64,000 nt of DNA, from assembly GCA_002049455.2 (NCBI GenBank), contig KV918893.1, positions 62,001 to 126,000 of the forward strand, read 5' to 3'. This DNA comes from Porphyra umbilicalis (lineage: Eukaryota; Rhodophyta; Bangiophyceae; Bangiales; Bangiaceae). Position numbers and translations under genes: made by a program. A model generated the notes under the pieces. The model did not search any database. It was not told the DNA's origin and saw only the letters and a list, made by a program, of their open reading frames with translations. Of the stretch, positions 1 through 58,271 are shown piece after piece (the stretch's first letter is position 1; every line of letters starts with the position of its first letter).

Positions 1-319
1 TCCTTTGAGGGTATCTGAGGAGGGTTTTCCGAGGGTCCCTTGAGGGTGTCTGAGGACGGTTTTCTGAGGGTCCGAGGGGAACGGATGGGATCAGAGGGTG
101 ACGCGTGAGTGACGCCTCGAGACCCTCGCCGCGGGCAAGCAAACTTCCAGTCGAACAACTCGTGTTTGTCGCTCGGGGCGCCTTTCCCCGGTCGACGCCG
201 TGCGTGTGTGCTCTTCGGGGTTTTCTTCCGGGGCGGGTTTCTCCGACAGGACTACCCGGCGCCACGGTTTGGCTCGCCCTCCCCCCAACAGGGTGGCGTG
301 GGCTGAGCGTGTTGTCACA
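1..319 (+). repeat. 5' LTR, 3' part only
   Basis: Matches 10568-10886 over its whole length with about 12 substitutions and no obvious indel. It ends in GTCACA, as the 3' LTR does, and internal sequence starts at 320. The first 75 bases contain the end of a 35-bp tandem subrepeat rich in GAGGGTTTT. Confidence 0.93.
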
Positions 320-321
320 TT

Positions 322-339
322 TGGTGGAGCTGCAGGAGA
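322..339 (+). other. Candidate tRNA primer-binding site
   Basis: Two bases after the LTR end, the sequence begins TGGTGGAGCTGCAGGAGA. Reverse-transcription primer sites start TGG because they pair with the CCA end of a tRNA. The cognate tRNA was not identified, so this rests on position and the TGG start only. Confidence 0.4.
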
Positions 340-1209
340 GGAAGGCAACTCAACCTTCCTCGGGGTGGTGAAGGTGCGCCAACCCGCCTCGGGGGGAACC
401 TAGTTGGTCCTGCTCCCCTTGGTGCCTAGCGCTGCGGGCGGCGCCCCGCAACGCCAGGTTTGGCTGAGTCCGGCCGGGTCGATGGCCGATGGGGGGGGGA
501 ATGGAGACCCCCCTGGTGTCGAGGTGCCTGGTGCCGGGGCGGATGAGATGACCCCCCCCGGAGGCGGATCGTCGGTTGACAATCGCCACACAACCGCCGG
601 CACCACGGATGTGAGTGCCCGCAGGGAGCGGACTTTGTTCCAGCCCTAGCCCCCGGGCCTCGATCCGACTGGGACTCGCCCCCCGACAGGCGCTCCCTTG
701 GGTAGTACTCACCCCGAGGCGGTCCTGTCGGGTGCTAGCACTCATTTCGGCGTAGGACAGCTGCCCGACGATACCACGTGGGGTGGTGGGTCTGTGCCAC
801 CACCGGCACGGAAACCTGCGGGTGGGAGCTCTAGTCCTGCTCCCCCAGGTTCACGGAGTGCCAAGGGTGCCCCGGCGCTTGAGAACAGTGCCGGAACCCA
901 CGGTATCGGTCCCCCGGCCCTCGGGCCCGGTGGGGATCCCCTCTCGGTGCTTGGGAGGGGGGGGCGACGCCAGGATCGGCACAGGAGCCTGCAGGCGGGA
1001 GCTCTAGTCGTGCTCCCCCAGGCTCACGGGGTGCCAGGGATGGCCGGGGTCTCGAGTGGCGAGACGCCGTGGCCGAGGTCGTTCGGTCTGAAGTTACCCA
1101 ACCGCTAGTTAAGATGTTGAGGGGCTCTACGCCCAGGCCCGCTGAGCGGCGGGGCCCAGCCCGACGCTCTTCTCGTCGGCGCCGACGCGACAACTCGTCG
1201 TCGTCGTAG
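340..1209 (+). other. Retrotransposon leader and decayed gag N-terminal region
   Basis: GC-rich sequence between the primer-binding region and the recognisable gag. Two similar segments around 810-850 and 990-1030 (AGCTCTAGTC plus CTGCTCCCCCAGG-like) look like an internal duplication. From about 1070 the frame that later becomes gag is already readable, with an Arg- and Ser-rich stretch, until a TAG at 1207. No other feature is visible. Confidence 0.5.
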
Positions 1210-2735
1210 ACCATTGACCTCTCCCGCTCGGGGGACGAGTCCGCTGTTGCGGTCCTACTTGGTGCGTTCCGTGCTACCCCCACGCCGTCGACGGTGAGAG
1301 AGGGCACTCGGGGAATTGACCAGACGGCCCAACCGACTCCTGCCTCGGCGGAGGGTGAGCAAGGCGTGGGAGCGGCGCGAGAGTTACCCCGGGGTATTGA
1401 CCCGGGGTTCCCGACGCAACTCTCCTCCGCGACCGGTCCGGAGGCAGAGGGGTGGCCTATTTAAACCACCCCGACCCCCCCAACTCGGGTGGCGCCGCCC
1501 AAGATTGTGGTGAACCACCCGTACTACCGGTTGATGTTCGATTGTGAGACCTACGCGCTAGACAACAAGTCTGTTGCCTACACGCGGCGCCAGGCCCGTA
1601 CTCTGGGCCGGCGCAAGAAAGAGGTGGCTCAGTCCTTCGGGGTAAACGACGAGTGGGGTGGTTCCCCCCCGGCCAATGTCTTCCAGTTCTTGCAAAAGTT
1701 TGCCAAGGCCTGTGACGACAACAACATCTCCGAAGACGAAGCCTTCTACATCCTTCAAGACTTCACGAAGGAACCTCTAAGTCAGAGGTGATGATGGTTA
1801 TGCCAACTCGCCGCTCGGGTAACCCCGGCGAGGTCACTTCTTACCTGAAGCTCATCAACTGGACGATCCGGCGTCAGGTCGACGAGGCCTCGGTGGCTAC
1901 TCGAGTCGAGACCCTTAACGTCGCGGTCCAACAGGATGACAAGGACGAGTTGTCCTTCGCCGAGCGCCTCCGCCGCCTCAACACCGAGTGCGGGTTCATG
2001 TACGGGGAGGGCGCCCTCAAGGGGCGCTTTGTGGAAGGTGTCCACCCCGCGGCGCGCGCCACTGTGCGCGAGCGAAACACCCCCGGCATGACTATGGCGG
2101 AGCTGGCTCGCGTCGCCCAGACTAAGGGCGACGAATACCGCTGGCTACGACTTGAGCAGCACAAGGAGCGGACCAAGGAGCGAGAAGCGCTCGCGGAGGA
2201 GGCCCGGCTCCGGCGGCAAGCTCGTGGGGCCGCCCTTCCCCGGGTCACCGGGGGAACGCGGGGATACCAACCGCGGGACGCCCCCGTCCGGACCGCCGGG
2301 GCCGTGGGTGCCCCCACTCCGGGCCCCCGATACGATGGTTCCGGACTCAAAGCCCCGGGCGGCTCGACTCCCGGGGGCGGAGACCACCCGCGCTACCGAC
2401 CCCGACCGAGGGATGAGCCTTCCCGACCCAAACCCCGGGCGGGAGAGTACCCTTGCTGGCAGTGTGGCAGGGTGGGTCATTGGGCCGAGGTGTGCCCCGA
2501 CTTTGACGCACGCCTACGCGACCGACTGGCCATAGCCAGTCGGTGGTCCCCTCTCGGTACATCCTCGGGCTCCCGCGATACCCCGCGAGCGGGCCGTCGA
2601 GTAGCCGTTGCCACTTTCCACGAAGAATTCAGCTCAAGCGGCGAGGAGTCGACGCCGCTTGAGAAGGGGGAACCGCAGACCGAGCCCGAGTGCGGACCCG
2701 CCACATCCTCTGAGTCCGAGGAGGGAAACGAATAA
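1210..2735 (+). pseudogene. gag: gag polyprotein remnant with CCHC zinc knuckle
   Basis: Gag coats the element RNA and forms its particle. One frame reads from the TAG at 1207 through a TAA at 1462 to a TGA at 1789. The capsid-like region continues after 1788 in another frame, so there is a frameshift there. The second part has a retrotransposon-gag-like helical region (about 1830-2160), then a basic and proline-rich linker, then the zinc knuckle CWQCGRVGHWAEVC (C-x2-C-x4-H-x4-C) near 2455-2496. It ends at TAA 2733-2735. No ATG was found for the N-terminal frame, whose start is therefore unknown. The zinc knuckle makes the family assignment safe; the reading-frame breaks show it is not functional as written. 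Confidence 0.85.
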
Positions 2736-2879: not shown

Positions 2880-3246
2880 TGGCCATCTTAACAGGGTCCA
2901 ACTGCCAGGTGGCCAGTCACGTCTGGCTAGACGCGAACGTGAGTTAGCCCTCCGCGTCATAGTCGACAGGGGGTCGTGCGTCTACCTAGTACGGGAAGCG
3001 CTACTCCCCCCGGAGATGGAGGTGGCGCGCTTAGACGCGGCGACCGCCCAGTTGTTTGACGTGAATGGGGGACTCCTCCCCATCACGGGTACCGTGACTC
3101 TTACGGTGCGAGTCGGCACTTACTCCATCCCAGTCATGTGTGGGGTAGTACGTGGCATGTCGGTACCTCTACTCCTAGGGACCGACTACACTGACGTCCA
3201 TGTCCCCAACATTTGCGTGCCCAAATGGGGCACATCCGGTTACTAA
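2880..3246 (+). pseudogene. Retropepsin-like aspartic protease with altered active site
   Basis: Aspartic protease domain that would process gag-pol. The hydrophobic-hydrophobic-D motif reads VIVDRGSC (Asp codon at 2965), and the downstream flap/C-terminal motif PLLLGTDYTDV is present near 3160-3195. The family consensus is D-T/S-G, so the Arg after the catalytic Asp is abnormal and would probably inactivate the dimeric active site. The frame closes at 3246 and overlaps the RT frame (from 3213) by 34 bases in a different phase, as is common for a protease-RT junction or a frameshift. Confidence 0.75.
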
Positions 3247-6200
3247 ACGGTTGTAGGGTCCCCATCCTCCGTCGGGTTAAGACGGTGTCGCATGCCCGGG
3301 AGGACCAACCGCAGTCGGGGGCCGCTAGTGAGGCGGACACCAAGGTGCGCCTGGCACACGAGGTGGTCCTACCCCCGCGGTCCCGCGGATACGTCCCAGT
3401 ACAGACGGCATTCCAAGGGAATGGGGTCATCACCCAGCGCCATCGAGTGTATGAGCGCCACCGCGTGCATGTTGCAACTAGCACCATGGACTGCACCGCC
3501 AACCAGACGGTGTGGGTGGAGGTAACCCACACGGGGAACAAGAGTAAGCGATTCCCCAAAGGCATGGTCATGGGGCATATGTCGGCCTACTCCAGTACGG
3601 TAGCCGCCGTATCCCGAGAGGACTGGGCTGCACTCAGCCCCAGTCCGACCACCGTGCCCGAAGCGGCCGACCCCGTGGAGGAGCCCCACGTTCATCCTTC
3701 GAACGTGCCCGAGGGGCTGCGGCCTCAAGTGCTCGCCCTAATGGAGAAGCACCGAGCCCTCTGGAGTGGGCACTTGGGCTCCATCAAGGCCACGGAGCAC
3801 CGGATCGAGTTGAAGCCGGGCTCCAAGCCCGTCCGGCTCAACCCCTACCGGATGGGTGCCCGAACTAGGGAACTCATAAACGCCCAAGTCGACCGAATGC
3901 TCAAGCTCGAAGCAATAGAGCCCAGCCAGAGTGAATGGGCTGGCCCGGTGGTACTCATCGCGAAGCCCGACGGGAGTCCCCGGTTCTGCATCGACTATCG
4001 GCAGTTGAACGAGCGCACAGTACGCGACTCGTATCCATTACCCCGGATGGACGACTGCCTCGACTCCTTAGGAGACGCACAGTTCTTCTCCACGTTGGAC
4101 TGCAACGCGGGGTACTGGCAGATCCCCCTAGCCGAGAGGGATAAGCCAAAGACGGCATTCACTTGCCACTGTGGGAAGTACCAGTGTACGCGTCTTCCGT
4201 TTGGCCTGTGCAATGCCCCTGCCTTTTTCCAGCGGGCTATTGACATGATCCTATTCGGAGTCAAGTGGCAGAATGTGCTCGTCTACTTAGACGACCTCAT
4301 CATCTTCTCCACCGATGCCGAGTCGCACCTGTCCCACTTGGACACGGTGCTCACCTTACTCGGAAAGCACGGGGTCACCCTCAAGGCCCAGAAGTGCCAC
4401 CTCTTTATCAACGAGGTGGAGTGTCTTGGCCATGTAGTGCGGCCAGGACGCTTGAGTGTGAACTAGAAGAACCTCAAGGCCATCAAGAAGGCCAGCTTCC
4501 CCCAGACCCCAACCCAACCCAGGAGTTTCTTGGGTATGTGCAATGTCTACCGTCGATTCACGGTAGACTTCGCTAAGACCGCGAAGCCGCTGAACAACGT
4601 GAATAGCGTGCAGCTTCCGAAGCGGTTGAGTCCCCCTACCCCGGAGGAACAGAACGCGATCGACAGACTACGCGAACAGCTATGCCACCCGCCCATCCTC
4701 GCGATACCGCGCAAGGAGGGGAAGTACATCATCGATGTGGATGCTAGCTACGACAAGTAGGGCGCTGCCTACTACAGCAGCAACCCGATGGTAAGTACCT
4801 GCCCGTAGGCTACTTCAGTAAGGGCCTACTGCCGGCGGAGAAGAACTACACCGTCACAGATATTGAGGGACTAGGGGTGGTGTGGGCGGTAGATTTACTA
4901 CGACCGTGCATCGAAGGCACCAAGTTCCTCATCCGGTGTGACCACAAGGCACTGAAGTGGATACTAACCACGACGGCCTGCACCAACAATCGACTCAATC
5001 GTTGGCGCATCCTCCTCTCGGAGTTCGGCTATGATGTGGAGTACAAGCCCGGCCCCTAACATGCGGTGGCCGACGCACTGTCCCGCATCCCGACTGAGGG
5101 GCTGGATACGGGACCCATCTCCCAGGAGATCCCCACAGTTGGGGTGACTACTCGATCGGGGGCGGTACTCGACCCCCGACTCCCCGAGAACAGGGAGACC
5201 GTCCGCATACACCTGGGCGAACTAGTCCAGAAGCAGGCGACAGAGGAGATCTGTCAAGGGGTCAAGAAGTTACTTGACACCCCCACGCCCATGCACTTCT
5301 ACGAGAACGCAGACGGGTTGTTGTGCCGTCGTGGACACCGCGAGGGGACCCAGCAGGTACTGGTCCCCCAGCCCCTAGTCAAGGACGTATTACGGGCGGA
5401 GCACTCCTCCCCCTTGACTGCGCATCCAGGTAGAACGCGCATGTACCAGACCCTGCGGGACCAACACTACTGGCCCTCGCTGGCGATGGATGTGTTCAGG
5501 TGGGTGGCAGCTTGCCCCACCTGTGAAAAGAACCGGCTCATGGGTACGCAGAGTAAAGCGTTCATGAGGTTGTTCCCCGCGACGGAACCCTTCGCAGCCC
5601 TGGCCATTGACTTACTTGGCCCGCTGCCCCGGACCCCCGCAGGATATGAGTACATCCTTGTTTTTTGTGACCGATTTACCAAGGTCACTCGGGCGGTCCC
5701 GCTTCGAGACATCACGGCTCTGGATGTTCTCAGCGCGTTCCTCGACATGTGGGTTGCCAGCTCTGGGATCCCCGATTCAGTTCTATCGGATTTCGGACCC
5801 CAATTCGCTGCCGTACTCTGGCAAGGAGTGCTCAAGACCCTGGGTATTGACACTAACTATGCCACCCCTTACCACCCCCTAGGGTTGCACACGACGCCCC
5901 TATTTCGGGGGCGTCAGGGGCGCGCGACGGATATGACACCTTACTGACGCCCCATTAGGCAGCCAAAACGCCCTCACGACGCCCCAAGTAGCACCCTGAA
6001 TATTCGCCATATCGTTCAAGTAGCACCCATATCGCACTCTCATATCTCATTTTTGTGTCCAGACAGGGTGCCTGTCCCCAACCAAGGTGCGCAGCCGCCA
6101 CCTGCTGAATCATGTGGACCCCCCTGAAAACTTCCTCTTCGCGACGCCTTGTTGACGGAGTTGGGGTGTTAGGGGCGCACGACGCCCAAATGACGCCCTG

Positions 6201-7071
6201 GTGACGCCCTTAACGACGCCCTTAACGACGCCCCGGGCGTTCTGAGCAACCCTACCACCCCCAGACTAATGGGCAAGTCGAACGGTTTAATAAGACCTTA
6301 GTCAAACAACTACGACACTAGGTAAGTGACCTTGTGGTTACGTGGTCCCGATATCTAAGCCTGGTAGTAACGGCTTACAATTCGCCAGTGCATAGTAGCA
6401 CCGGGCAAATCCCTTTAGCGTTCGTAAGTCTTCGACGGCTTACTCCCGTGGCAATCGAAGGACTTACAGCGGGCTCCGACCCCGGGGAGATAGTGACCCC
6501 CGGACGAGCCAAGGATAATTTCCTCCAGCGCCTCGACCTCCTGATCCCCCTAGTACGGGATACCGTGGAAAAGGCACAGGCCCGATACAAACGAGCCTTC
6601 GACATGCGCGTGCAAACTCGCTGCGAAGCCCTCCAAGTTGGAGACTGGGTATTCGTGAAGTCCCACGATAACCAGGGGGGTAACTTCGTCTTCAAGACGC
6701 TGGGACCCTACTAGATCTTGAAGACCGTCGGGCGTCGGCTTACCTTCGAAAGTGGCGATGGTATCCGTACCATCAATGGGAACCACGCCACCCGGGCCCC
6801 GAAGCCACCCGAGGGTGACCCGGCGTGGGCACGGGCACTGGCCGCGTGGCGGGTCCCCTCCCTCCCCTCATCGGCAAGTAAACCGATTGAGGCTGTCTTC
6901 GACCGCTTTGTTGGATAGGGGTACGACGACGAGGAGCGACTCATGCTCAAGGTCAGGTGGTTCGGGTATGGACCCCGGGAGGACTCCTGGCACTATGTGG
7001 AGGACCTCCCGGCGGAGAAGGTCCGCCAGCACTGTGCGTGGCACCGGCTCACAATGAGAAGAAGGGTATAA
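3213..7071 (+). pseudogene. pol: pol: reverse transcriptase, RNase H, integrase, chromodomain (broken)
   Basis: RT is nearly complete from about 3770 to 4466, with the catalytic YLDD box at about 4284-4295 and a normal FCIDYRQLN motif. TAG at 4464 interrupts the thumb. RNase H follows (VDASYDK at about 4737) and is broken by TAG 4758 and a frameshift near 4770; it ends at the usual ADALSR motif near 5070 after TAA 5057. Integrase has the HHCC zinc module (about 5400-5535) and the first two catalytic Asp motifs (AIDLLG about 5605, LSDFG about 5785). It is then split by a MITE at 5880-6253, after which the conserved NGQVERFN motif with the catalytic Glu follows at about 6270. TAGs at 6319, 6712 and 6916 follow. 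The last segment (6919-7071) resembles a chromodomain, with LKVRWFGYGPREDSWHYVEDL. Removal of stops was not attempted here. Confidence 0.93.
5880..6253. mobile_element. MITE nested in integrase, MULE-like
   Basis: A 374-bp insertion splits the integrase codons. Its ends are inverted: AGGGTTGC at 5881 and GCAACCCT ending at 6253, with 16 of the first 19 bases matching. It is flanked by identical ACCACCCCC at 5871-5879 and 6254-6262, a 9-bp (possibly 10-bp) target duplication. Nine-base duplications are characteristic of Mutator-like elements. The interior has no ORF and repeats the motif GACGCCC many times, often as clusters near each end. The integrase reading resumes immediately after the second duplication. 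Confidence 0.88.
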
Positions 7072-7406
7072 TACAATTAAAAACCCCCAGTACAGGGTAC
7101 CCCTCACACACACCCCCGACAATAGATCCAACCCAACTAGGGACAAACATGGTAGGGGCCGGGCTACCCATAACTCAGCGCCCCGGCGCCGCACTCGAGC
7201 CAGGGTACCTACTCCCTACCCGGCGAGTGCGGGCGGTCGTCGCGGGCGTACCCACCGAACTGGTCGTAACCCGGGTGGTCCCCCGGGTACTCCTGGGCCG
7301 ACCCCCGGTCCGAGGGGCCCGGCCCCCACGACGAGCGCGGCACCATACTCGGTGCCGCCCCCGCCGCGGCGTACCCCCCAGCGGAGGAGGGGTAGCCGCC
7401 CCCATG
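7072..7406 (+). other. Non-coding spacer between chromodomain and antisense ORF
   Basis: Short AT-richer stretch after the pol stop (TATAATACAATTAAAAAC), then GC-rich sequence. No domain was recognised on either strand. It would hold the 3' untranslated part of both convergent reading frames. Confidence 0.4.
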
Positions 7407-8987
7407 TTAGGGCGCGGCCGAGCCAGCAGGCTCCCCGGCGTACGGGGCCCGACTGGAGCTCCCGCCCGCCGAAGGCCCCGCGGGCCCAGGCGCCACCCGC
7501 TGGCCGTGCCCCTCCAAGCGGGAGGCCATCTGGTACCCGATGAGCTCTGGGGTGGTGTCCACCAAGACCTGCTCAGCTGGGGCAGTCCGGGGGGACGAGG
7601 CGTCCCGCAGTACGGCCCCCGCCCCCCGGGTAACCCACGCGAGAGCGTCCACCAGGGAGGCAACTATCGCCTCCCCATGGGCAGCCCTAAGCTCCCCCGC
7701 CGCACTTGGGTAGGTGGTCGCCAAGGCGTGGGCGCGACGCGGGGTGACGTACCCCCAGCTGAGGCTCTGCCCTGCCGCAAGGGCCGAATAGTACGAGACC
7801 CCCGGCGGGGCAAACGTCGGACGGCCCAACCGTCCCACGGGGGACGCCCCCGCCCGGGTGGTCCGCCGGACAGCGCCCCCACGAGCAGGAAGGCTCTCGG
7901 CAGTACCTCGAGTGTGCCTACGCTGGTGGGGGAATCTGACCCCCGGCGCACCCCAACCCGAGTCGGACGGGGGCGACGTCGCCTTTACCCCCGCAGAGTA
8001 GGGGTAGGCCAGGTCACCCAGGCCCGCAAGGAGGCCTACGCGCCCGGCCACCAGGCGCTTGTCACAGTGGACAAAGGCCCAAGGCGCCTCGCCCTCCTCT
8101 CCGCCAACTCGGCGGGCCAGGTAGGGCCCGGACGCCTCCCAGTCCAAGAACTGGTGGAGGTCCAGCAACTTGCTGAGGTACACATGCGCGTCCGGGCCTG
8201 CCCCCTCCGCCACGTTGGCGAGGCGGAGCCCCACCAGGCGCCCCACTACGGCAGCTGGCAGATGCCAGAGGTATCTTATAGTACGGGCGGAGGCATACCA
8301 CACTCCCGCCACCTCCAGTACCCACTGGGTAGCGAGGATGGCCGCCGCGGACGTAGACTCCCCCCGGCGGAGCGCAGTGCCAAAGTAGGCCACTATGCGC
8401 GGCATCCGGGCCGGAAACCCGAAGGGCACCTCCATGGCCGACCACCAGGACGGCGTCAGGACGTAGTACGCCCGCCGCGCCGAGACGTGGACCTGGGTAC
8501 TCTCCACTTGAGAGTCCTGCACCAGGATGCCCGACGCCGCCCGCACACGGCGCTCGGTGCGGGCGTCCTGGTGGTGGAAGTGGGGATCCCCCTCCCCCAA
8601 GTACGGGGGGGAGGAGCACGCCCACTCCCACGCCACGACGAGCGGCGCGTTGTCGACGGTGGCCCCGTGCATGACGTTGGACAGGCGCACGGCCACGCGC
8701 TCCACCCACGGCGCGTCCCCCGCCTCTTGTAGGGCGGGGACGTCCGTCGCCACTCCGGCAGGCAGTTCGTACTGCACGGGGTGGCGCGCTAGCCAGCGCT
8801 GCCAAGCCGGGCCCTGCTTGGGCAGCGGGACCGCGGAGTAAAGCGTCCGCAAGCGGCACTCCCGCATCTGACTGGGGGCAGCCGAGGGCGACCACCGGAC
8901 CAACGCCCCCGGCCCCGCGAGCCCCGCCTCCTCCACTGACGGGAGGCGCCTCCGGCGCGGCACCGGCGGGGGGGACTCCTGCTCCAT
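7407..8987 (-). CDS. Antisense accessory ORF of the retrotransposon, unknown function
   Basis: A 526-codon ORF from ATG 8987 to TAA 7407, on the strand opposite gag-pol and lying between pol and the 3' LTR. The same frame stays open upstream to 9128 without an ATG. Its composition is protein-like rather than that of a GC-rich shadow: it has many Trp, Tyr, Phe, His and Met residues, for example YYVLTPSWWSAMEVPFGFP and WVLEVAGVWYASARTIRYLW. No known domain, signal peptide or clear membrane segment was recognised. A low-complexity Ala/Ser/Pro/Arg extension is readable further upstream (about 9640-9200) in another frame, so the ancestral protein may have been longer and lost its frame near 9200. 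Some Ty3/gypsy elements carry extra ORFs, sense or antisense, in this position. Its openness while gag-pol carries eight stops is the notable point. Confidence 0.7.
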   Translation of the reverse strand: MEQESPPPVPRRRRLPSVEEAGLAGPGALVRWSPSAAPSQMRECRLRTLYSAVPLPKQGPAWQRWLARHPVQYELPAGVATDVPALQEAGDAPWVERVAVRLSNVMHGATVDNAPLVVAWEWACSSPPYLGEGDPHFHHQDARTERRVRAASGILVQDSQVESTQVHVSARRAYYVLTPSWWSAMEVPFGFPARMPRIVAYFGTALRRGESTSAAAILATQWVLEVAGVWYASARTIRYLWHLPAAVVGRLVGLRLANVAEGAGPDAHVYLSKLLDLHQFLDWEASGPYLARRVGGEEGEAPWAFVHCDKRLVAGRVGLLAGLGDLAYPYSAGVKATSPPSDSGWGAPGVRFPHQRRHTRGTAESLPARGGAVRRTTRAGASPVGRLGRPTFAPPGVSYYSALAAGQSLSWGYVTPRRAHALATTYPSAAGELRAAHGEAIVASLVDALAWVTRGAGAVLRDASSPRTAPAEQVLVDTTPELIGYQMASRLEGHGQRVAPGPAGPSAGGSSSRAPYAGEPAGSAAP

Positions 8988-9189
8988 GAGGTCATCCCCC
9001 GCCTCACCCGGTGCCGCCTCAGCCGCCGGGGAAGTGCCCGGCCGGCTGGGCGGCAGCGGCACGCGCGCCGCCGCCGTGCCGGGCCCGGCCGCGTCCTCGT
9101 CAGCCGACCGCGTCGCCGCACTCGACAAGCGGGAGGCCGACGCCGACCCCGCCGTCGATTTGGACCGGCGTGGGGGCGGCGGGAGTTGA

Positions 9190-9650
9190 GTCGCTTGACT
9201 CCCCGCCGCCCAGGACTCCCGGCTCGGGGGCGCGCCGTGGCCTGGCGCGACCGGCGGGCTGCCTTGCCCCGGGACGCCGCCACGGCCGCGCCACTTGACT
9301 TGGTGGCGCCGGCCGGCGTCGCAGGTGCAGACGCCGCCGCCCCGCCAGCCCGCGGGGTGGCCGCCGTCGAGCCCTTGGCCCTGGGGGCGCCCGTACTGCC
9401 CGACGCCCCGCTCACCCGCGGGGACTCCGCCGCAGGGCTGTCCAACTTGGCCGTAGCCGACGCCGGCGTCCCACTCGGCGCCGGCGCGGCGTGCCCCGCA
9501 CTTGGGGAGCCATCTCCTCGTTCGGCGCCACTGCCGTCGACCGCAAGGAAGCCATAGCCGCCGCGCTCTGGTAACAGGGACAGCGAGGGGGATGGCAACG
9601 GGGAGGGGGGCGCACTGCGCAAAGAGGGACGAGGGGGGGCCGTCAACTTG
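9190..9650 (-). pseudogene. Possible low-complexity N-terminal part of the antisense ORF
   Basis: In a frame different from the main antisense ORF, the minus strand reads a Ser/Ala/Pro/Thr-rich then Arg/Lys-rich stretch (for example ERGGYGFLAVDGSGAERG near 9540-9590). It runs towards the start of the 526-codon ORF. A single frameshift near 9180-9210 would join them. It may equally be chance GC-rich openness. Confidence 0.3.
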
Positions 9651-10160
9651 AGTAGCGGTTGAGGGAACGGTGACGGCCGGTAGTGGACGGCCTCTGCGTC
9701 TGTCCCCCGCCTACCCCCCTTTTCATGAGCCCCTGCGTGCGGACAGGGGCCCTTACCCCGGGCCCGCTCAGCTCCGCCCCGCGGGCCACCCCACCTGGAT
9801 GACTCTTCACAGGGGGGGGCCCGCAAGACAGCCCCCCGGGTGGGGGGGCGGGGGGGGTGCCATGCTGGGCACCGCCCTGTTGGCCCGCCGGGCACGGTTA
9901 GAGGGCCCGCCCCGGACAAGCGGCCGCACCCCTGGCCCCCGCCGCCGTATCCACCGTACGTCGACGGCGCGTACCCCTTTGCCCCGGCGCGGGCGCCCCC
10001 ACAATCCGGGGCGGCCCCCGCTGGCGAGGACAGGGGCAGCACCCGGGCCCCACACTGGGGAGCCCGGCGGCTAGCCGTCCTGGCCCGCCCGCCCTTCTCG
10101 TGCGGGCCCGCCCCCCTGGCTCTGGGCCGCCAAGACGGCGACCCCTTTAGAAGCGGGAAT

Positions 10161-10886
10161 TGTGACGGTCCGTCCCATGGCCCCGACACTCGGGGAACCA
10201 GATTCCCCGGAACTATGCCCCACTACCAAATATTTCAAATTGCTCCGTCGGCGACCCACTTGTGATCACCTCGTGGCTCACCAACCACAACCGCAATCCC
10301 AACACTTCCCTGGGATGTGTAACCCCCGGAGCGGGTCCCTATTTAAGGGCCTAATTTCGTGTAAACCCGACTTAGATTATCGACTTATGTTACTCCGCGC
10401 CCCTGACACCGGGGCGCCGCGAGGGTGTCACGTAGCACCCTTTCCCCGCCTCTACTCAAGGCGGTATTCGAAGCTTCGGCCGTCCTCCGGGTTATGGGCC
10501 CTGTGGGCCCTGAGGGGAGGGTTTTCCGAGTGTCCTTTGAGGGTGTCTGAGGAGGGTTTTGCGAGGGTCCTTTGAGGGTATCTGAGGAGGGTTTTCCGAG
10601 GGTCCCTTGAAAGTGTCTGAGGAGGTTTTTCTGAGGGTCCGAGGGGAACGGATGGGATCAGAGGGTGACGCGTGAGTGACGCCTCGAGACCCTCGCCGCG
10701 GGCAAGTAAACTTCCGGTCGAACAACTCGTGTTTGTCGCCCGGGGCGCCTTTTCCTGGTCGACGCCGTCCGTGTGTGCTCTTCGGGGTTTTCTTCCGGGG
10801 CGGGTTTCTCCGACAGGACTACCCGGCGACACGGTTTGGCTCGCCCTCCCCCCAACAGGGTGGGGTGGGCTGAGCGTGTTGTCACA
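10161..10886 (+). repeat. 3' LTR, 726 bp
   Basis: Starts TGTGAC at 10161 and ends GTCACA at 10886, a perfect 6-bp inverted repeat and the usual TG...CA ends. The purine-rich AGAAGCGGGAA just before it (10150-10160) is the likely polypurine tract. A palindromic TATA-like CCCTATTTAAGGG lies at about 10337-10349. At about 10514-10640 there are between three and four copies of a 35-bp unit (GGAGGGTTTTCCGAG-like). The 5' flank of the element is outside the window, so the target duplication cannot be tested. Confidence 0.9.
10337..10349. promoter_or_regulatory. TATA-like palindrome in the LTR
   Basis: CCCTATTTAAGGG reads as a TATA-type box on both strands, so the LTR could in principle start transcription in both directions. 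That would suit the antisense ORF. Sequence resemblance only. Confidence 0.3.
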
Positions 10887-49854: not shown

Positions 49855-50421
49855 TCAAACGGTGGGTGGGATTTTCTCAGTGGTACTTGCCTCTGTGTTC
49901 AACCAGTTTGAGTAAGTCTTTATGTCGACCGCGTCGCCGCGACTTTGGGCGGCAGACCTCTGGTGTCTCCCAAGCGGATGGCGTCCGCCGCCCCCGTCGT
50001 TGCCACAGGCCGCGTCGGCCAGCGGCGCGAGCAGCGCCGCCACGAGCCCATTGTCGGCGCAGCCGTAGCGCCTCGTGGCGGCCGGGCGCACCGTGCGCAC
50101 ACCCGGCAGCCGCCCGTCAGCGTCTGCAAACGCGCGGGCCCCAGTCGCCGGCCGGCGCGGCGGCCGCATCCCGGCCACTCGGGACGCGTCCGTTGCGGGC
50201 GCCGCCGCTCCACCCGCGCGTGCGCCGACGCTCCGTCGCTCAGGGCGCGGCGGCGCCGTCGGCGCCACGCCAACGTTTGGCGATCGGTTTGGGCACACAC
50301 CCCCCTTCACCCCCAAAAAAGACCGCCACAGCGTCAAAAAGGATGGACACAGCAACCCGCCGCCACCACCGCCGTCGCCGCCCCCGCCACACGCGTCGTT
50401 TACCGCACAACGGCGGCGCAC
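49855..50421 (-). CDS. Hypothetical small ORF
   Basis: Minus-strand frame of 188 codons with a more varied C-terminal half (RRYGCADNGLVAALLAPLAD, DAVDIKTYSNWLNTEASTTE) and a Gly/Arg-rich N-terminal half. No ATG before residue 80 is convincing; an internal Met lies near 50178. It overlaps no recognised gene. It may be non-coding. Confidence 0.28.
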   Translation of the reverse strand: MRRRCAVNDACGGGGDGGGGGGLLCPSFLTLWRSFLGVKGGVCPNRSPNVGVAPTAPPRPERRSVGARAGGAAAPATDASRVAGMRPPRRPATGARAFADADGRLPGVRTVRPAATRRYGCADNGLVAALLAPLADAACGNDGGGGRHPLGRHQRSAAQSRGDAVDIKTYSNWLNTEASTTEKIPPTV

Positions 50422-50451
50422 TGCCCCCCCCCCACCCTCACCCCCCCCCCC

Positions 50452-50807
50452 TCACGCGTTGACAACCGTATCTGCCAGTGGCAGGTTGCGTCCCGGCGGG
50501 GCGTCCCCCCCCTTCCCCCCCCCTCGAGGTACTCATCCACAAACGCGTCGAGGCGGCTCGTCGCCGCCGGCGGCGCGCCCGCCGGCGGCGCCACCACCAA
50601 CGCCCCCCGCAGCGCGAGCAGCAGCTTTCCATACTGCCGCCCATACGCGCGGGCGAGGCCGTAGCCCCCGACCTCCAGCGCCGCAAACGCGAGCGACGCG
50701 GAGAGGCGGCGGGGGCGGCCGACGGCCAGCCGCGCGAGGAGCGACCACAACTCGTCTGTGCGGGGGGGGGGGGGGGGGGGGGGAGGGCCGCCGCGGGCAC
50801 GCCCCAC

Positions 50808-50840
<33 letters not shown>

Positions 50841-50851
50841 AACGGGTCGCG

Positions 50852-50883
<32 letters not shown>

Positions 50884-51885
50884 GGCCAAACGGGTCTGCG
50901 CGCGCACCCCCCCCGGCGGCGCCCCCCCCCGGCGGCGCGTCGAGGCGCCCCGGCGGCGCGGCGGCGGCGGCGGCCACGGCGGCGACCACCCCGGCGGCAC
51001 CTCTGTCTGCGCCATGGCCGCGTACAGCGCCATGTACCCACACATGCGGTCCGTGTAGGCGTCGAGGCGCTCCCCGTCGCGAAAGCCGAGCGCCGCCCGA
51101 AACGCCGCGTCGGCGGCCGCCGCGTCGGCAGCCGGCGCCCCCCCCCCCCCACCGGCGGGCGCCCCGGAAAGTGCGGCATAGTGTACGGGCACGCGCGGTG
51201 GAGGGCGCCCGCAATGGCGTCGGCGAGGCCACCGCCGCCGTCCCCCCCCCCCCCCCCCCCCGCCGGCGCCGCCGCGCGCCGCCCCGCCGCCGCGGCCGCG
51301 GCACCTGCCCCCCCCCCCCCCCCCCCCCCCGCCGCCCACACGGTCGGCAAACAGACGCCCGCCGCGACGGCGGCGACCGCGTAGGCGGCGCCGACGGACG
51401 AGGCGACGCGCGCGTCGCCTTCGGCGGCGAGGCGCTCTGCGAGCGCCGACGCTGCAAAGGCGCCCGCCGCGTCGCTGTGCGCGGCGGCGGCGGCGAGGAG
51501 GGTGACGAGCTCCGCCGCCTTGGCGCCGACTTGCCGCACCGACCCCGCAATTTGGTTGACCGCCAAGTTGAGCCGCTTCTTGATGGCGAGGCGCGCGCGC
51601 CGCTCCGCGGGCGCCGCCGCGGTGCGAAAGGGGGCGGCGGCGGCCTCGAGGGCGGCGAGGTGCGCGAGCCGCGCGGCGGCGGGGGGGGGGGGGTGCCGAG
51701 CACGTCGCGGCCGCGGGGGGGGGGGTGCGCGGTGCGCGCCACCGCGTTGGCGCCGCCGGCGGTGGCGGCGGTGGCGGCCGCTGCCGCGGCGGACCGGGCG
51801 GCCGCCGCCGCCTCGGCCGCCGCCGCCGCCACCGCCGCCGCCTCCCGCCGCGCGGCCGCCGCCCGGTCGGCCACCGCCGCCCGCT

Positions 51886-51917
<32 letters not shown>

Positions 51918-52601
51918 GCCGCCGCCGCGCCCGCAGCGGCCGCCGTGCCCCGCGCGGCCGCCTCGGCGGCGCCGACCACCGCCGCGCGGCGGCGGCGGCG
52001 GTCGGCGCGCTCCGCGGCGGCGGCGGCAGACGTTGTGGGGGCGTCGAGGGGGGGCGCCCCCCCCCCCCCCCCCCCCCCCCCAACCCCCCCCCCCCCCCGT
52101 CCAAACCGGCGGCCGCGGCGGGGGCGCGCGGCGGCGGCGGCAGCAGCAGCCGCCGCCGCTTGGCGCCCGCCGCCGCCGCCGCCGCCGCCGCCTCGTCCAC
52201 GGCGGCGAGGCGGTCGGCGAGGCGCAACGCGGCGGCGGCCGACGCGGCCACGGCCGCCGCGTGCGCCGCCGCAGACCGCCCGTGCGACGCGGATTGGGCG
52301 GCGAGCCACGCGGCGGCGGCCGCGTCGGGGGGGGGGCGCCGGGGGGGGGGGGCGGGGGGGGGGGGGCGCCCCGCCGCCGCCGCCGCGCAGAGACACGCGT
52401 CGGTTGGTCGCTCGGCGGGCTGGGCGCGGCGGACGGGGGTGCGCGCGGCATAGGGGCGGCCGCAAAGTCAAACGGGGCGGGGGGGGGGCGGCGTTGCCCG
52501 GGGGCGGATGGGGGGGGGGGGGGTCACCCCGTTGACCGCCGCGGGGGGGACATTGGGAAGGAAAAAGGGGAGGGGTGGGTGGGGGACGTGACCTCTTCCA
52601 T
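50452..52601 (-). CDS. GLE1: GLE1-like mRNA export factor
   Basis: GLE1 acts at the cytoplasmic face of the nuclear pore, where with IP6 it activates the DEAD-box helicase DBP5 to strip proteins from exported mRNA. Conserved blocks of the GLE1 C-terminal domain occur in order on the minus strand: LAIKKRLNLAVNQIAGSVRQ (about 51590-51530), ALAERLAAEGDARVASSVGA with YAVAAVAAGV (about 51450-51360), HRACPYTMPHFP (about 51210-51170), DAYTDRMCGYMALYAAMAQT (about 51070-51010), and LAFAALEVGGYGLARAYGRQ, YGKLLLALRG and RLDAFVDEYLEGG (about 50690-50530), ending NLPLADTVVNA at TGA 50452. Upstream is an Ala/Arg/Glu-rich coiled-coil region (about 52030-51730). The blocks lie in three frames, changing only at C/G runs (50762-50783, 51139-51150, 51242-51261, 51308-51330, 51680 onward). 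The start is uncertain; ATG 52601 (MEEVTSPTHPS) is the best candidate. Confidence 0.82.
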
Positions 52602-54344
52602 GGTCGCGTAGGGCGACATTGCGAAAGGGGGGGAGGGGGGGGGGGGTCGACACGACGAGGGGGTCCGCCGCCGTCGGCAATGGCGGGCCACGCATGTCGG
52701 GACGCAACAATGCGCGAAGAAGAAGCGGGCGCAGGCCGAGACTGAAAAAAGCCCGCCTGGGCGAGTCATCAAAGTATTGTAGTAGTACCCCTCTGGATTT
52801 GCCAACATCGAGCGTATCGAAGGTTTGCTAAACGTTTACTCTGAGGCAGGGATGTGAGTCGATAATTATCACTCGATAATGATCGTCATGATTATTGCGA
52901 CATCATGGAAATCATGCCAGCACGCACTGATAATGATCGTCGGTGGACTACGTGTTCGCATTTAATTTGAAGAAAATACATGTCATGCCGCAAGTGGAAC
53001 AAGCGGATCTTGGACTCACTGACACCGCCTCCGTCGGTCTTTGTTTCCGGAGCTCGCCTGCTCAATGTCCCTGCTGCACCACCGGCATGTGCGCACCCGA
53101 CCGCCGCCATGCAGGTGGGAAGAGCACTGCTATATACCATGCTACACTCCTGCCGGGCCGCACGCCGCGTGGCAGCGGTCGCTGCTATCGCCGTCTTGAT
53201 GGTGTGTGTCGGTTCGGCGGTCGTCGCCGCCGCGTTCCCGCTCACATGCGTGCCATCTCTTCGCAAGATGGTCGCCATTTCTCCTCCCCCCTGCATTTCC
53301 GAGGGCAACGCCTCACACACCCCAACCCTGGTGAGGGTGGCCGTGTGGCGATCGCGGTCGGCCCACAACCACCCCCCCCTCCGACCCCCCCCCGTCCGCC
53401 GCAAACGCGGCGGCAGCCGCCGCGCGAGCTGTCCCCCCCGTCGCCCCAATGACGGCGAGCACGTGCCGCGCGGTGGAGGCGGCGGCCCACCCCCATAGGC
53501 ATTGTGTGGAGGGGCGAGAGAGACGCAACGAAGCAGAACGAACAGGCTGTTAGACGAGACATGATTCAGGTCGTCCATCAAGTACTCTCAGAAGAAGTCG
53601 GGCTGATGGTTTCTGTAACCACGAACGATAATTATTAATAATTACTTCTTCGAAATCTTATAACCCTGCTCTGAGGCTGCCTGAGCGCGCTGTGCACTGG
53701 ATGTCAAATCGGTGACCTTTGCACGAGAATCTTGCGTGGCCCCGCGAGCAGCTCGAGCGACCCCACCCGCGGCGGCACGACGGCCGATCCACTCGAGCCG
53801 CACCGCGCTCGAGCCGCTTTTCGAGGGAGATTCGCCCGCCCCTCACGGCCCGCCCAGGGGCGACCTGTACGGCGCAGCCCCGTTGAGGGGGGGGGGCAGC
53901 CGTCCGCCACCTGGAGCCTCCACCCCCCTGCGGGTCGTGCTCGGGGGGCGACCGGGACGGTGGCGCGGGCGCGCCCCCCTTTTCCCTCCCTCACGCGGTG
54001 CGGCTGCGGCGGTGGCCGGCGCGGCGCCAGGTGCCCCCCCCCCCCCCCCCCCCCCCGGTCGGCCCCCGCTCGTCGTGTCGCCCGTGAAGACGACGACGGC
54101 CGCGACGCTGCCGCAGGCCGCCGGCGGGAGGGGGGCCGCCCCCCCCCGGCGCGCCGCCGCCGCCGCCAGCCGCTGCCACCGCCGCCGCGCGGGCGGCGGC
54201 CGTGAGGGCGCGTGCCCTCTGGACCCTGCTTTTTTTTTTTTGCTCTGTTGTGTTTATTGTGTTTTTTGGGTCGCCGCTGCGCGCCCTCGCCGCGCGCCCG
54301 TCACGCTCCCGGCGGCGACGTCCGCCCCCCCCCGCCCCCCTGCC
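52602..54344. other. Intergenic between divergent GLE1 and FAD4-like genes
   Basis: Likely holds both promoters. AT-rich patches occur at 52858-52935 (ATAATTATCACTCGATAATG, ATAATGATCGTC repeated) and 53628-53645 (GATAATTATTAATAATTAC). A plus-strand frame at 52980-53498 has one hydrophobic segment (about residues 57-82) but no other support. A T11 run is at 54231-54241. Confidence 0.4.
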
Positions 54345-56082
54345 ATGGCCTTTGCCGCCGCCGGCGCACTGGCCGCCTGCCCGTGGGCGGCGGGCGGGGC
54401 GCCGCCGCCGCCCCCGCGCCGACTGGCCGTGTGCGTGTTGGCCTCCCGCCGGGGGGGACCCGGCGGCGGCGGCGGCGGCGGCGGCCGCCGCCCGGCAGAC
54501 GCGCCCGTCTGGCACCACGGGGCGGCCGGCGGCGCGTGGCCGGCGACCGCCGCGGGCGGCGGCCGCCACTGGAGCGGCCGCCGCGTGCACGGGCGTGTCG
54601 GTGGCAGCGGCGGCGGCAGCGGCGGCGGCAGAAGTGGCGGCGACGGCGGCAGCGGCGGCGGCGGCGGCAGCGGTGTGCCCACCGACGGGGCGGCGGTCGA
54701 CGCGGCGGCCGCCGCCGCGGCCGGTGGGCCACGGCGCGCGCTGCCAACGCGCACCGCCGCCACGGCGGCAGCGTCCGTGTCGTTTCGGCGACCGGGCGCG
54801 TCCCCCGGCGACGGGCGCCTCGGCTGCGGCTGCGCGGCGGGCGGGTGCGCGTGTGGCGGGCGGCCACCGCCGTCCTTGGCGCCGCCGCCGCTGCCGCCGC
54901 GGTCGGCCGCGTCGACCGTAACGACGGCGGCGGCAGCCGGCGGCGCTGCCGCCGGCCGCCGGCCGCCGGCGGCGCCGGCGCCCGGGTCGCCCCCCCCCCC
55001 CCCCCCCCCGCCCCCGTCGCCGGCGACGCTGCCGCCGCCGCGTGGCTACCTCTCCTCCCTTGCCGACGCGATGGCGGTGTTGGCGCCGTACCCCCCCCCC
55101 CGCCCGGCCCCCTGTACGACCGCTCCTCCGAGTGGGTCGCCGGCGAGCGGGTGCCGCCGTCGCCGACGTCGGCGATTCCCCGCCCCCACCGCCCCGCGGT
55201 CGTCCTCCAACGCATGACGGTTATTGTGGCCGACTACCTGTCGGATTTGGTCGTCCTCGACGTCCTCTGGCGCCTGCACTCGCCCGCCGAGGCGGTGGCG
55301 GCGGCGGGCGGCGTCTTTGGCGCGTGGCTCACCGCCGACTTCCTCTCGGGCGTCGTGCGCTTTGCGCTCTCGGCCGGCTACGTGACGGACGCGCCGCTCG
55401 TGTTTCCCGTCAAGCACGGCACGGACGGGTCGGGCGGGGCGGGCATATTTTTCAACGCCGTCAGCGACTGGTGTGCGGTCGCGCTGCTGCCGCTGAGCGT
55501 GTTGGCCGGCGCCACCCCGTCGTCGGTGTCCCTCCAAGCGTACGGCGTGGCGCTCGTCGGCCTGCTGGCCGTGTTGCCGCTCGCCACCCCCCCGCCGGCG
55601 CGCACGCGTGTGGGGTGGTGCGCCTGTGCCGCCGCGTCGGCCTCCTCCGGCCCGTGGCCACCACCACTACCGGCTGCTACTGTGGGTTGAGTGGGGTGTG
55701 GAATGGGCTCCTCGACGCGGGGGGGGTGTGGCGGCGCCTCGAAGCGGCCGTCTATGACGCGTCCGCGGGGCGCGTCGTCTCCCGCGTGTGGATGCACAGC
55801 CCGGGGGCGGTCGTTGAGGCGGCACGCTACAGCCGCCGCCTCCGCCGGGATTGGCTGTGGCAACAACGGCGGGGGGGGGAAGGGGGGGGGGGGCGGGGAA
55901 AGCCCCGGCGCCGGGCGCGGGGGGGCGCACGGGCGGGCGCCGCCGCCGCTGGCACGGCGTCGTCAAGGGGCGGGGGGGGTGAGGGGCGTCGGCCGCGGCC
56001 GACGCGGACCCGTTTTTTTCTTTTTTGGTTGCAGCGGCCACGCACGCGCCCCGCACGGGGGACCCCCATCGTTGCCTCGTAG
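54345..56082 (+). CDS. FAD4-like plastid lipid desaturase homologue lacking histidines
   Basis: ATG 54345 opens a Met-Ala-Phe-Ala leader, then a long Gly/Ala/Arg-rich, transit-peptide-like region broken by C19 at 54989-55008 and C10 near 55091. The domain follows: two membrane-like stretches including WLTADFLSGVVRFALSAGY (about 55325-55385), FNAVSDWCAVALLPL (about 55455-55500), a hydrophobic helix, then after a shift at C7 55587-55593 YCGLSGVWNGLLDAGGVWRR and ALEAAVY-type sequence (about 55675-55760). These align with FAD4/Kua (TMEM189) lipid desaturases: ADLGSGVYHW, the LPL helix and the NNNYCIVSGAWNNVLD motif. FAD4 puts a trans double bond into plastid phosphatidylglycerol using His-rich metal sites. 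Here the His of the first motif is Arg, the H-H motif is not preserved, and the H-x2-H-H motif reads ATTTT. The 3' end is unclear because of G runs at 55868-55892; TAG 56080 is the first stop of the domain frame. Confidence 0.55.
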
Positions 56083-56702
56083 GGGTGCGGCGCGGCCCCG
56101 GTTTTTGGTGTGCGTCGGTGCCCGATTGCTGTGGCTTGCCGCCGTGCAAGCGTCCCGTTCCCCGTGCCCCGCCGCAGCGTACGATTACGAGTATTAAACC
56201 TAGGCGGCGCATACGCGCCGGCCCTGCTACCGCTTGTTGGGCGACGGCGGCGACCTGGGCGACGGCGCCACCGTCCCCGCGCCCCACGCCCGGCCCCGCC
56301 CCTCCGTGGCCGTGCGCGCCCGTCACAGCCGCCCGTGGGGTGGCGCTTGGGGGACCCCACGGCCGCCCCCGTGGTGCCTGTGCACCACCCGCCGCCGCTG
56401 CGGCGGCCGTCATCCTCCCCTCTCCGCCCTTTGGAGGGGGTGGCGGCAGCGGCTTGGCCCCGCTTGCGCCCACGCCCGTGCCCGACGCGCCCTGCTCCTC
56501 CCACGGCAGGGGCACCCAACAAAGCGGCGGCGCACCGCGGCGCCAACGCCGCAGACCGCGTCCGCGCGGGAGCGGCGCCTGCCCCCGGCGGCCCGCCAAC
56601 GCGGCACGGCGGTTGACGCCACATGGTAAAAACATCAGCCGCCGCGGCGGCGCGCGCCGCCCAAAAAAAAACTGCACGCCACACACCCCGTCGCCCCCCC
56701 CC
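56083..56702. other. Intergenic, convergent gene ends
   Basis: Long shadow ORFs only. GATTACGAGTATTAAACCTAGG (56183-56204) is a small AT-richer patch. Confidence 0.4.
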
Positions 56703-57885
56703 TCACCCGCCGTCGAGCCCCGCGTCCACCTGGTAGTGCACGCCCGGCACGCGCGCCCACGCGCGGAGGGTAGCCTCCCCCGCGTCGCCAATCCCACCGC
56801 CGTCGGCAGCGTCGTCGTCGACCTCCTCCCCGTCGCCCCACCCGCCGCCATCGTCGTCGGCATCGTCGTCGGCATTGTCGTCGGCATCATCGTCGGCATT
56901 GGCGTCGGCATCGTCCTCCCCCTCTCCGTGTCCCACCAGGCGCCCGTCCGCGTCGCCGAGCAGCTCACCGCCGGCGCGGTCGCCGCCGCCGCCGTCGCCG
57001 CCCCCGCCCACCGCCACGTCCAGCCGCACGAGCAGCCGCAGCGCGCGCGGCCGCACGCCGAGGGCGGCGGCCACGCCCGCGCGCGCAGCGACGGCAGCCG
57101 CGGGCGCCACGCCGGGCGCCACGGCCAAGCCGACGACCTCCAGGTGGGGGCACTCCCCCGCAATCGCCGCCGCCAACCGCACCGCGTCGGCGGGCGCGTC
57201 GCCACCACCCGCGCCCGCCGCCCCGACGCGCAGCAGCAGGCGCACGCGCGGGGGTTCCCCCCCCCCCCGCCCCCGCCCCCCCCCCTCCCCCCCGCGGGGG
57301 CGCCCCCCCCCCCCCCCGGGGGCGGCGGCTCGCCACGCCCGCGGCGGCGGCTTGGAGCTCGGCCGCCTCGGCGGCGGCCGCCGCGGGGTCCCCCCCCCCC
57401 CCCCCCCAGCACGACGCCGACGCGCGCCCCGACGGCGGCCTTGGCGCGCCGCCCGACGGCGGCGGGCGCCCACCACACCTCCCCCGGGGGAGCCCCCGGA
57501 CGGCGGCGAGGGACGGGACGACCCACCCCCCCGCCCCCGCGTCGGCCCACACTTGGGGCAACACCCACGGGGTGGCGGGCGGCACGGGGCCGACGAGGAG
57601 GGGGGCGCCCGCCGGCACCGCCGCCGCCGCCGCCGCCGCACGCGCGGCGAGGCGCGTCAGCGCCGCGACGGGGAGGGAGAGGCCGTCGAGTTCCGCGTCC
57701 CCGTCGGTGGCGGCGGTGGCGTCGGGGGGGGGGGGGGGTGGGGGAGGGGGGGGAGGGGGGCGAGCCATACACGTGGGGGGGGGGGGCGGGGGGGGGGGGC
57801 GCGCGTGGGGGGGGGGACCCCGCCGCCCGCCGCCTGACCGCGGGCCGGGCCAGGGGGGGGGGGCGACAAACGCGCCCGTCGTCAT
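56703..57885 (-). CDS. Diverged group IV PLP-decarboxylase-like (ornithine decarboxylase fold) protein
   Basis: ATG 57885 gives a leader with GAFVAPPPW, resembling a rhodophyte plastid transit peptide, although another ATG at about 57768 starts MARPPPP. Protein-like blocks follow in changing frames separated by C runs (about 57730, 57395, 57302, 57262): LSLPVAALTRLAARAAAAAA, PLLVGPVPPATPWVLPQVWA, GGWVVPSLAAVRG, EVWWAPAAVGRRAKAAVGAR, VRLLLRVGAA, RLAAAIAGECPHLEVVGLAV and RALRLLVRLDVAVGGGG. Their order and spacing resemble the PLP barrel of ornithine/diaminopimelate decarboxylases (substrate-channel strands, YANPCK-type, LLLRI, VGVSFHVGSG, LDIGGG). The PLP lysine expected in AVK is absent (LLVGP), as is the His of FHVGS, so catalysis is doubtful. 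An Asp-rich repeat (56850-56915) and VPGVHYQVDAGLDGG end at TGA 56703. The similarity is weak and by eye. Confidence 0.38.
56850..56915. repeat. 12-bp array ATCGTCGTCGGC, coding for Asp-rich repeat
   Basis: Five to six imperfect 12-bp units read on the minus strand as (D-A/N-D-D)n. Length changes keep the frame. Confidence 0.9.
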
Positions 57886-58271
57886 GACGTGAGTGGCCCG
57901 AGGCGGGAGCAGGGAAGGAGGGGAGGGGGGTCGTACGTAGGGCGAGGCGGGAGCGTCAATGGCCGGCGTCGAGCCACGGGGTGCGCGGCGCCGCAGTGCG
58001 CGGCGGCGGCGGCGCGGCTCCCGCCACACCCGCGGGTGGCGAGGCGGGGATCTGGACAGACGGCACGAATCGCGCCCCAACCGCAAAACACGCGCGACGA
58101 AACGGGCGCGCGCGGCGCGTCCACGCCCGCCGCGCCCTTTGTCCGTGACAACCCTCAAGCCGCAGCCGGCGGCGCCTGCGCACCGCCGCACGTTTGGCAA
58201 ACCAAAAAAAAAAAAAAGGGAAGGGGGGAAGCCCCCCGACGGCGACCGGCCCGCCGTCGCGCCCGCCGCCC
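57886..58271. other. Short intergenic spacer between two minus-strand genes
   Basis: No feature except an A14 run at 58205-58218 followed by GGGAAGG. It should contain the upstream region of the PLP-decarboxylase-like gene. Confidence 0.4.

Follow-up and report, generated by a model that had tools for sequence, protein, structure and literature searches.

The window, i.e., the whole stretch of 64,000 nucleotides of the red alga Porphyra umbilicalis that we analysed, contains an LTR retrotransposon whose gag and pol frames lie on the forward strand and which carries a long stop-free frame on the minus strand (Table 1). The two LTRs show 25 differences over 724 aligned bases and are flanked by GAAAT and GAGAT, an imperfect target-site duplication. 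Pol is spread over several broken frames. With two LTRs, a reverse transcriptase (RT), an integrase (INT) and a zinc knuckle below the Pfam threshold, the carrier would be classed by its sequence as a chromovirus-like Ty3/gypsy LTR retrotransposon. We scanned three sister elements for the Chromo domain (PF00385; Pfam cut-off 25.1 bits), leaving out the window's own stop-bearing tail. Two of them gave sub-threshold matches (L043, 24.3 bits, E 3e-5; L041, 23.1 bits, E 7e-5) and the Pfam scan of the third (L042) gave none.

Table 1. Features of the carrier element and of its antisense strand (window coordinates).
Feature	Position	Strand	Remarks
5' LTR end	1..319	+	LTR starts ~406 bases before the window (-406..319); 726 bases in total
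gag frame	1788..2735	+	Zinc-knuckle match, E 0.004, below Pfam cut-off
pol frame with reverse transcriptase	3213..4466	+	PF00078, E 7e-34
pol frame with integrase zinc-binding and core domains	5066..5947	+	Broken at about 5877
Dispersed-repeat insertion, 369 bp	5878..6246	.	Splits the integrase region of the window copy
Integrase C-terminal part and chromodomain-like tail	6334..7072	+	Contains an in-frame stop
Overlapping sense ORF, 591 aa	6957..8732	+	Judged a shadow from dN/dS and stops of its frame
Full antisense gene as in longer copies, projected on the window (approximate)	7209..9556	-	Stop near 7211 in six copies
Antisense ORF as first noted	7407..9128	-	What remains (middle and C-terminal part) of a ~780-aa family protein
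Core domain common to the protein families (boundaries approximate)	8021..8870	-	From alignments
Non-coding spacer, antisense gene start to 3' LTR	9557..10159	-	Putative promoter site
3' LTR	10160..10886	+	727 bases

Other repeats and open frames are present in the window. The GACGCCC-rich insertion in the integrase region has at least 40 other near full-length copies in the genome at 93-96% identity, plus one partial copy, and a short piece of target sequence is nearly duplicated at its ends; it resembles a small non-autonomous element. The LTRs contain a 35-bp tandem repeat unit, with three overlapping register matches at 10516-10640 in the 3' LTR and one at 19-73 in the within-window part of the 5' LTR. 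Several very GC-rich stretches (0.79-0.85) at 50403-52765 and 55670-59460 contain, on either strand, frames that stay open over 634-831 codons, which are likely composition effects.

Extent and decay of the antisense frame

The minus-strand frame is present as the sequence-only reading described it: it lies opposite to gag-pol, flanked by the integrase/chromodomain-like tail on one side and the 3' LTR on the other, and counts 573 codons from a TTG or 526 codons from the first in-frame ATG at ~8987. When the start codon is ignored, the frame is even open from 9710 to 7410, i.e., over 767 codons. GC content at its codon positions 1/2/3 is 0.74/0.61/0.84, and the positions rank as they do in gag and RT. 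Order-1 Markov sequences (2000) modelled on region 7081-9710 had, over all six frames, a median longest open frame of 264 codons; a single sequence reached 573 codons or more and none reached 767. This region was picked because the antisense ORF lies there, and the 64-kb window holds two longer frames, of 831 and 775 codons, where the GC content is 0.79-0.83. Therefore the Markov test is weak on its own and the comparison of copies is the stronger proof.

Twenty copies were compared over the ORF. The stop was mapped in 19 of them: six end at 7211, one at 7166, two (window copy included) at 7409, and ten earlier in the protein, so that 7 of the 19 mappable copies read past the window stop, to about 7211. 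The first ATG is found at 9514 in three copies, at 9555-9556 in six, at 8987 in four (window copy included) and elsewhere in seven; the position near 9514-9556, found in nine of the 20 copies, marks the approximate start of the antisense gene in its longer form. Relatives retrieved from databases likewise start earlier than the window ORF and run beyond its stop. Since other copies and relatives carry later stops and earlier ATGs, the window copy is decayed and truncated: its end and its joined-up beginning are lost, with a broken start region and an early stop at 7407. The frame had at first been called intact, a description that these copies contradict.

Alignments of 15 of the 19 other copies to the window start before pol ends and continue unbroken into the 3' LTR; the exceptions are L034 (aligned from 7387), L035 (from 7248), L039 (extra breaks) and L040 (aligned to 10111). 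With L039 and L040 left out, mean pairwise nucleotide identity is 0.943 in the core, barely above the 0.941 of the 3' LTR, and 0.917 in the spacer, which is lower than in the ORF.

Homologous proteins and their arrangement in the host genome

ORFs homologous to that of the window are found in Pyropia vietnamensis and, within the host genome, in three or more diverged families. The window ORF shares 34% identity with the Pyropia protein and 42% with the 648 aa protein of a divergent family (L043). Window-type and third-family proteins are about 26-27% identical, and a third-family protein compared with a profile of window-type and Pyropia-type proteins gives a probability of 99.7 (E 5e-27, 288 columns). 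The third-family element L041 has an antisense ORF of 735 aa; in L042, the corresponding antisense frame is fragmented. The RT frame of the window is 58-64% identical to that of divergent families and 49-52% identical to that of the third. ORF and RT therefore diverge in the same order, as expected if both genes were inherited together.

Family members share a layout of a Pro/Ala-rich N terminus, a conserved core and an Arg-rich variable linker, followed on the C-terminal side by a helical segment and a Gly/Tyr-rich tail. Two AlphaFold models suggest that the protein is mainly helical; because both are of low confidence (mean pLDDT 38 and 42), we limit our statement about the fold to this. A profile comparison with the window's gag (probability 0.2%) led us to reject the idea that the antisense gene is a copy of gag.

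The protein had initially seemed to match nothing. This holds for Pfam, where the lone match of 25 family members at E up to 10 was one member at E 0.05, and for PDB sequences, among which no relative was found (one match at E 0.6). It does not hold for sequence databases, where we found 48 relatives, then five more, of which four are named proteins of P. vietnamensis, and, for another family, 58 relatives. PHROGs gave no useful match to the antisense-ORF protein, and no relative was confirmed among IMG/VR viral contigs. The TRP28 domain (PF04195) was absent from the 25 members at E up to 10, from P0055, P0064, P0051 and the protein of L043, and from the search of the host genome; HMMER filters can drop very weak matches, and the antisense-ORF protein may have a very remote kinship with TRP28. 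In abstracts, mainly of open papers, searched for red-algal cases, no description of this antisense ORF was noticed.

We searched the host assembly (83.8 Mb in 665 contigs, one of which, C665, holds ten of the eleven phycobilisome-family matches and is evidently the plastid genome) with proteins of the different families. Matches were found at a minimum of 80 places with the window ORF protein, and at at least 75, 64 and 91 places with the Pyropia, third-family and L043 proteins (the last at E up to 10), while a 126-residue core piece had 150 matches (best 150 of 256 candidates scored). These places are aligned pieces, some of them from one copy, and the lists from different queries overlap.

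The layout around these places is uniform wherever pol was found. An integrase tail lies within 6 kb on the opposite strand, on the 3' side of the ORF, at 111 of 159 ORF places, i.e., at 61/80 window, 9/15 divergent and 41/64 third-family places. For this comparison, we used 146 of the 150 listed integrase-tail places (98 and 48 in two rounds), and the 15 divergent places exclude five small tail fragments found in the Pyropia protein search. No tail within 6 kb was found for the remaining 19, 6 and 23 ORF places among the integrase-tail places listed, and no other arrangement of tail and ORF occurs among the 159 places compared. In most cases, tail and ORF lie 693-705 bp apart in the window's family and 591-605 bp apart in the third.

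Seen from pol, we considered 88 tails that are at least 66% identical to that of the window: 65 of them are followed within 9 kb by an ORF piece on the opposite strand, and none by one on the same strand. The ORF list used for this count was without the third-family and 558-aa-group rows from the core search and without three C4 pieces from the search with the window ORF. ORF-bearing copies include stop-free pol frames of 1324 aa (C69, C189, C204). At the other 23 of the 88 close tails, no ORF piece was detected within 9 kb downstream, and stop-free pol frames of 1341 aa with no antisense ORF detected downstream are found at C340:61629, C9:52644 and C124:43631. Given that close relatives with long stop-free pol lack the ORF, the antisense gene is thus common yet not indispensable, or was lost in sublineages.

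Of the third-family copies other than the query, 11 among the matches listed are stop-free at 95-99% identity over residues 2-735 or more, and one further copy at 95% carries two stops; for pol, six places have matching frames of 1395 aa, stop-free within the match. On account of these near-identical stop-free ORF copies and stop-free pol frames, the third family was probably active recently.

Two more distant groups were found. One is a pol class about 41% identical to that of the window, with eight places on C59, C249, C28, C14, C150, C220, C322 and C13 and several long stop-free pol frames, in which no ORF was found by homology with the window, Pyropia, third-family, L043 and core queries. 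The other consists of seven distant ORF-core places (C374:9335, C14:328026, C22:350799, C147:155705, C170:11045, C17:115565 and C155:45045) that are 32-37% identical to the window's core, four of them with stop-free open frames of 558 aa. Neither an integrase tail nor an integrase zinc-binding domain was found near these seven among the places listed (for the zinc-binding domain, best 150 of 679 candidates scored). They could be a further element family or stand-alone genes.

Selection across copies

Selection was assessed on the 20 copies that best match the ORF, a sample chosen by ORF similarity; alignments per region contain 13 to 20 copies. Pooled dN/dS is 0.54 for the antisense frame (20 copies), 0.41 for RT (16 copies), 0.43 for INT (17), 0.50 for gag (13) and 0.34 for the integrase tail region (18). 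By dN/dS, selection on the antisense ORF is weaker than that on pol. Among the six frames over the ORF, the antisense frame has the lowest dN/dS and the fewest stops: four of the five other frames are at 1.11-1.18, and the mirror frame (0.58), which has its third positions in common with the antisense frame, carries 13.3 stops per copy. The overlapping 591-aa sense ORF was considered as a gene and rejected as a shadow, its frame over 7410-9128 having a dN/dS of 1.11 and 3.25 stops per copy.

We then separated variant sites shared by at least two copies from singletons. Shared sites are distributed over codon positions 1/2/3 as 48/52/102 and singletons as 185/153/159, giving a third-position excess with p 4e-7 for the former and p 0.75 for the latter. 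In the antisense frame, the ratio of nonsynonymous to synonymous changes (N:S) is 106:105 for shared variants and 482:230 for singletons (Fisher p 6.6e-6), the singletons corresponding to a ratio of 0.81. The same contrast is found in pol (p 0.008 for RT, 9e-5 for INT and 2e-4 for the tail region) and is not significant in gag (p 0.12), while the control sense frame shows the opposite (shared N:S 160:49, singletons 486:228, p 0.02). Purifying selection on the shared variants acted while the element moved, not after its death.

Changes private to the window copy comprise 43 nonsynonymous and 16 synonymous changes in the ORF, i.e., a per-site ratio of 1.04, compared with ratios of 0.55-0.62 in the gag, RT, INT and tail segments (26-35 changes each). 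Given these pol and gag values, neutral change does not correspond to exactly 1 on this scale, and part of the private changes arose before insertion. Either way, the antisense ORF of the window copy shows no more constraint than pol. The antisense frame contains a mean of 1.15 stops per copy over 572 codons and nine of the 20 copies, including that of the window, are stop-free; the stop-free stretch in the window is therefore not remarkable. Expressed per 1000 codons and copy, stops number 2.0 in the antisense frame, 1.0 in gag, 1.1 in RT, 1.6 in INT and 2.8 in the tail region. Among the signs that would speak against it, the sequence-only reading had named stops as frequent as those of pol and a dN/dS near 1: stops do occur at about the rate seen in pol, but for the shared variants dN/dS departs from 1.

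A candidate accessory gene and the alternatives

We conclude, with a probability of about 0.77, that the frame represents a decayed version of an accessory gene that is carried by several red-algal Ty3/gypsy families with a chromodomain-like integrase tail and likely acts for the element in the nucleus. This reading builds on the position and orientation of the gene, its homology between families and its selection during transposition. The gene lies antisense to gag-pol, in the stretch from pol to the 3' LTR, and is inherited with the element. Its transcription, convergent with that of pol, may start at a promoter of its own in the spacer or run in antisense out of the 3' LTR. By analogy with Grande gene23 of maize, and given the Arg-rich linker, the Pro/Ala-rich N terminus and the Gly/Tyr-rich tail, the product would serve the element, with the nucleus as its most likely place of action, either in the control of element expression or on the incoming pre-integration complex as a help to integration. 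It would be helpful rather than indispensable to the element, and, once inserted, each copy decays under no visible constraint.

We considered whether GC-rich DNA could have produced the frame by chance or as a shadow ORF, or whether the frame merely accompanies sense-strand coding, as the GC content of 0.74, the longer frames of the window and the overlapping sense ORF might suggest. With just one of 2000 Markov sequences reaching 573 codons, with the lowest dN/dS and fewest stops of six frames, and with homologous proteins in diverged families and in Pyropia, this explanation retains next to no probability. A gene kept by selection after the death of the element was one of two options offered by the sequence-only reading. 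Such a host gene, captured or domesticated, would agree with an ORF that outlasts gag-pol in the window copy, stop-free over 572 codons, and with the seven distant ORF places for which no integrase tail was found nearby among the places listed. We regard it as highly improbable, however: 9 of 20 aligned copies, that of the window included, are stop-free over the same codons, the window copy is truncated, its private changes (43:16) give a ratio of 1.04, and all 111 places with a tail found have one layout. The other option, an accessory protein of the element, is borne out by the constant position and orientation where a tail was found, the homologues in diverged families and Pyropia, and the selection on shared variants.

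Two further explanations concern the nature of the block and of its product. A separate transposable element nested antisense inside the retrotransposon would fit the opposite orientation, and the block is missing at 23 of 88 close pol tails, as an insertion in some copies would give. Yet the distance to the pol tail is near-constant at many sites in both the window's and the third family, diverged families keep the same layout, and 15 of 19 other copies align unbroken from the pol end into the 3' LTR; a nested element is distinctly unlikely. Alternatively, selection could act on an antisense RNA or a double-stranded RNA regulator, the protein being secondary. The convergence of the gene on pol is compatible with such a regulator, a possibility raised for plant antisense ORFs (PMC7264820, by its description), but selection is patterned by the codons of a single frame, and families that differ widely still have similar proteins. 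We consider RNA unlikely as the selected product, although it could still act in addition to the protein.

The accessory gene that we favour resembles the aORF-3R of plants (maize Grande gene23, rice RIRE2, Silene Retand and Phaseolus PvRetro13), which are long ORFs that run against gag-pol in the stretch separating pol from the 3' LTR, present in many copies and several families and with no assigned function. Presence in most copies of a family and conservation similar to that of pol are marks of this class; here, the ORF accompanies 65 of 88 tails, with a dN/dS of 0.54 compared with 0.34-0.50 for pol and gag. For Grande gene23, an own promoter and a nuclear protein have been reported (PMC7264820). 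TRP28 antisense ORFs are described in nearly all young Retand clusters, with DNA binding suggested (PMC11963269, 2025), and the same source gives LTRs of 315-1,194 bp and a pol-to-3' LTR interval of 2.9-6.6 kb for Retand. The red-algal element is similar in size, with an LTR of 727 and a pol-to-3' LTR interval of about 3.1 kb. It differs from the plant cases in its red-algal host, and from Retand, described as a non-chromovirus, in the chromodomain-like tail of its integrase and in having no TRP28 (PF04195) match. Likened by description, Boty of Botrytis cinerea has an antisense ORF outside plants (PMC7264820), and the antisense genes of deltaretroviruses (HTLV HBZ type) lie near the 3' end with their own promoter (PMC7264820, PMC11963269); the nuclear role of the latter is the one that the red-algal ORF may have by analogy.

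More tentatively, at somewhat less than even odds, these proteins may form an ancient accessory family without known relatives that has been passed on together with pol in no fewer than three diverged families and in one or more further red-algal species, and that has the same position, convergent with pol, as TRP28 in Retand elements of flowering plants. If so, the layout of a backwards accessory gene at the 3' end would have been invented more than once, or would predate the split of plants and red algae. The gene would also give the element a real though not absolute advantage, for which the ORF-less relatives in the same genome would be a natural control.

In the account of PMC7264820, antisense accessory genes are known mainly from flowering plants, with one fungal case named. 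The red-algal family provides a second system for testing expression, localisation and benefit to transposition. A single 84-Mb genome holds a young near-identical stop-free group, an older decayed group and close ORF-less relatives, and the profiles can be used to annotate 'hypothetical' proteins of Pyropia.
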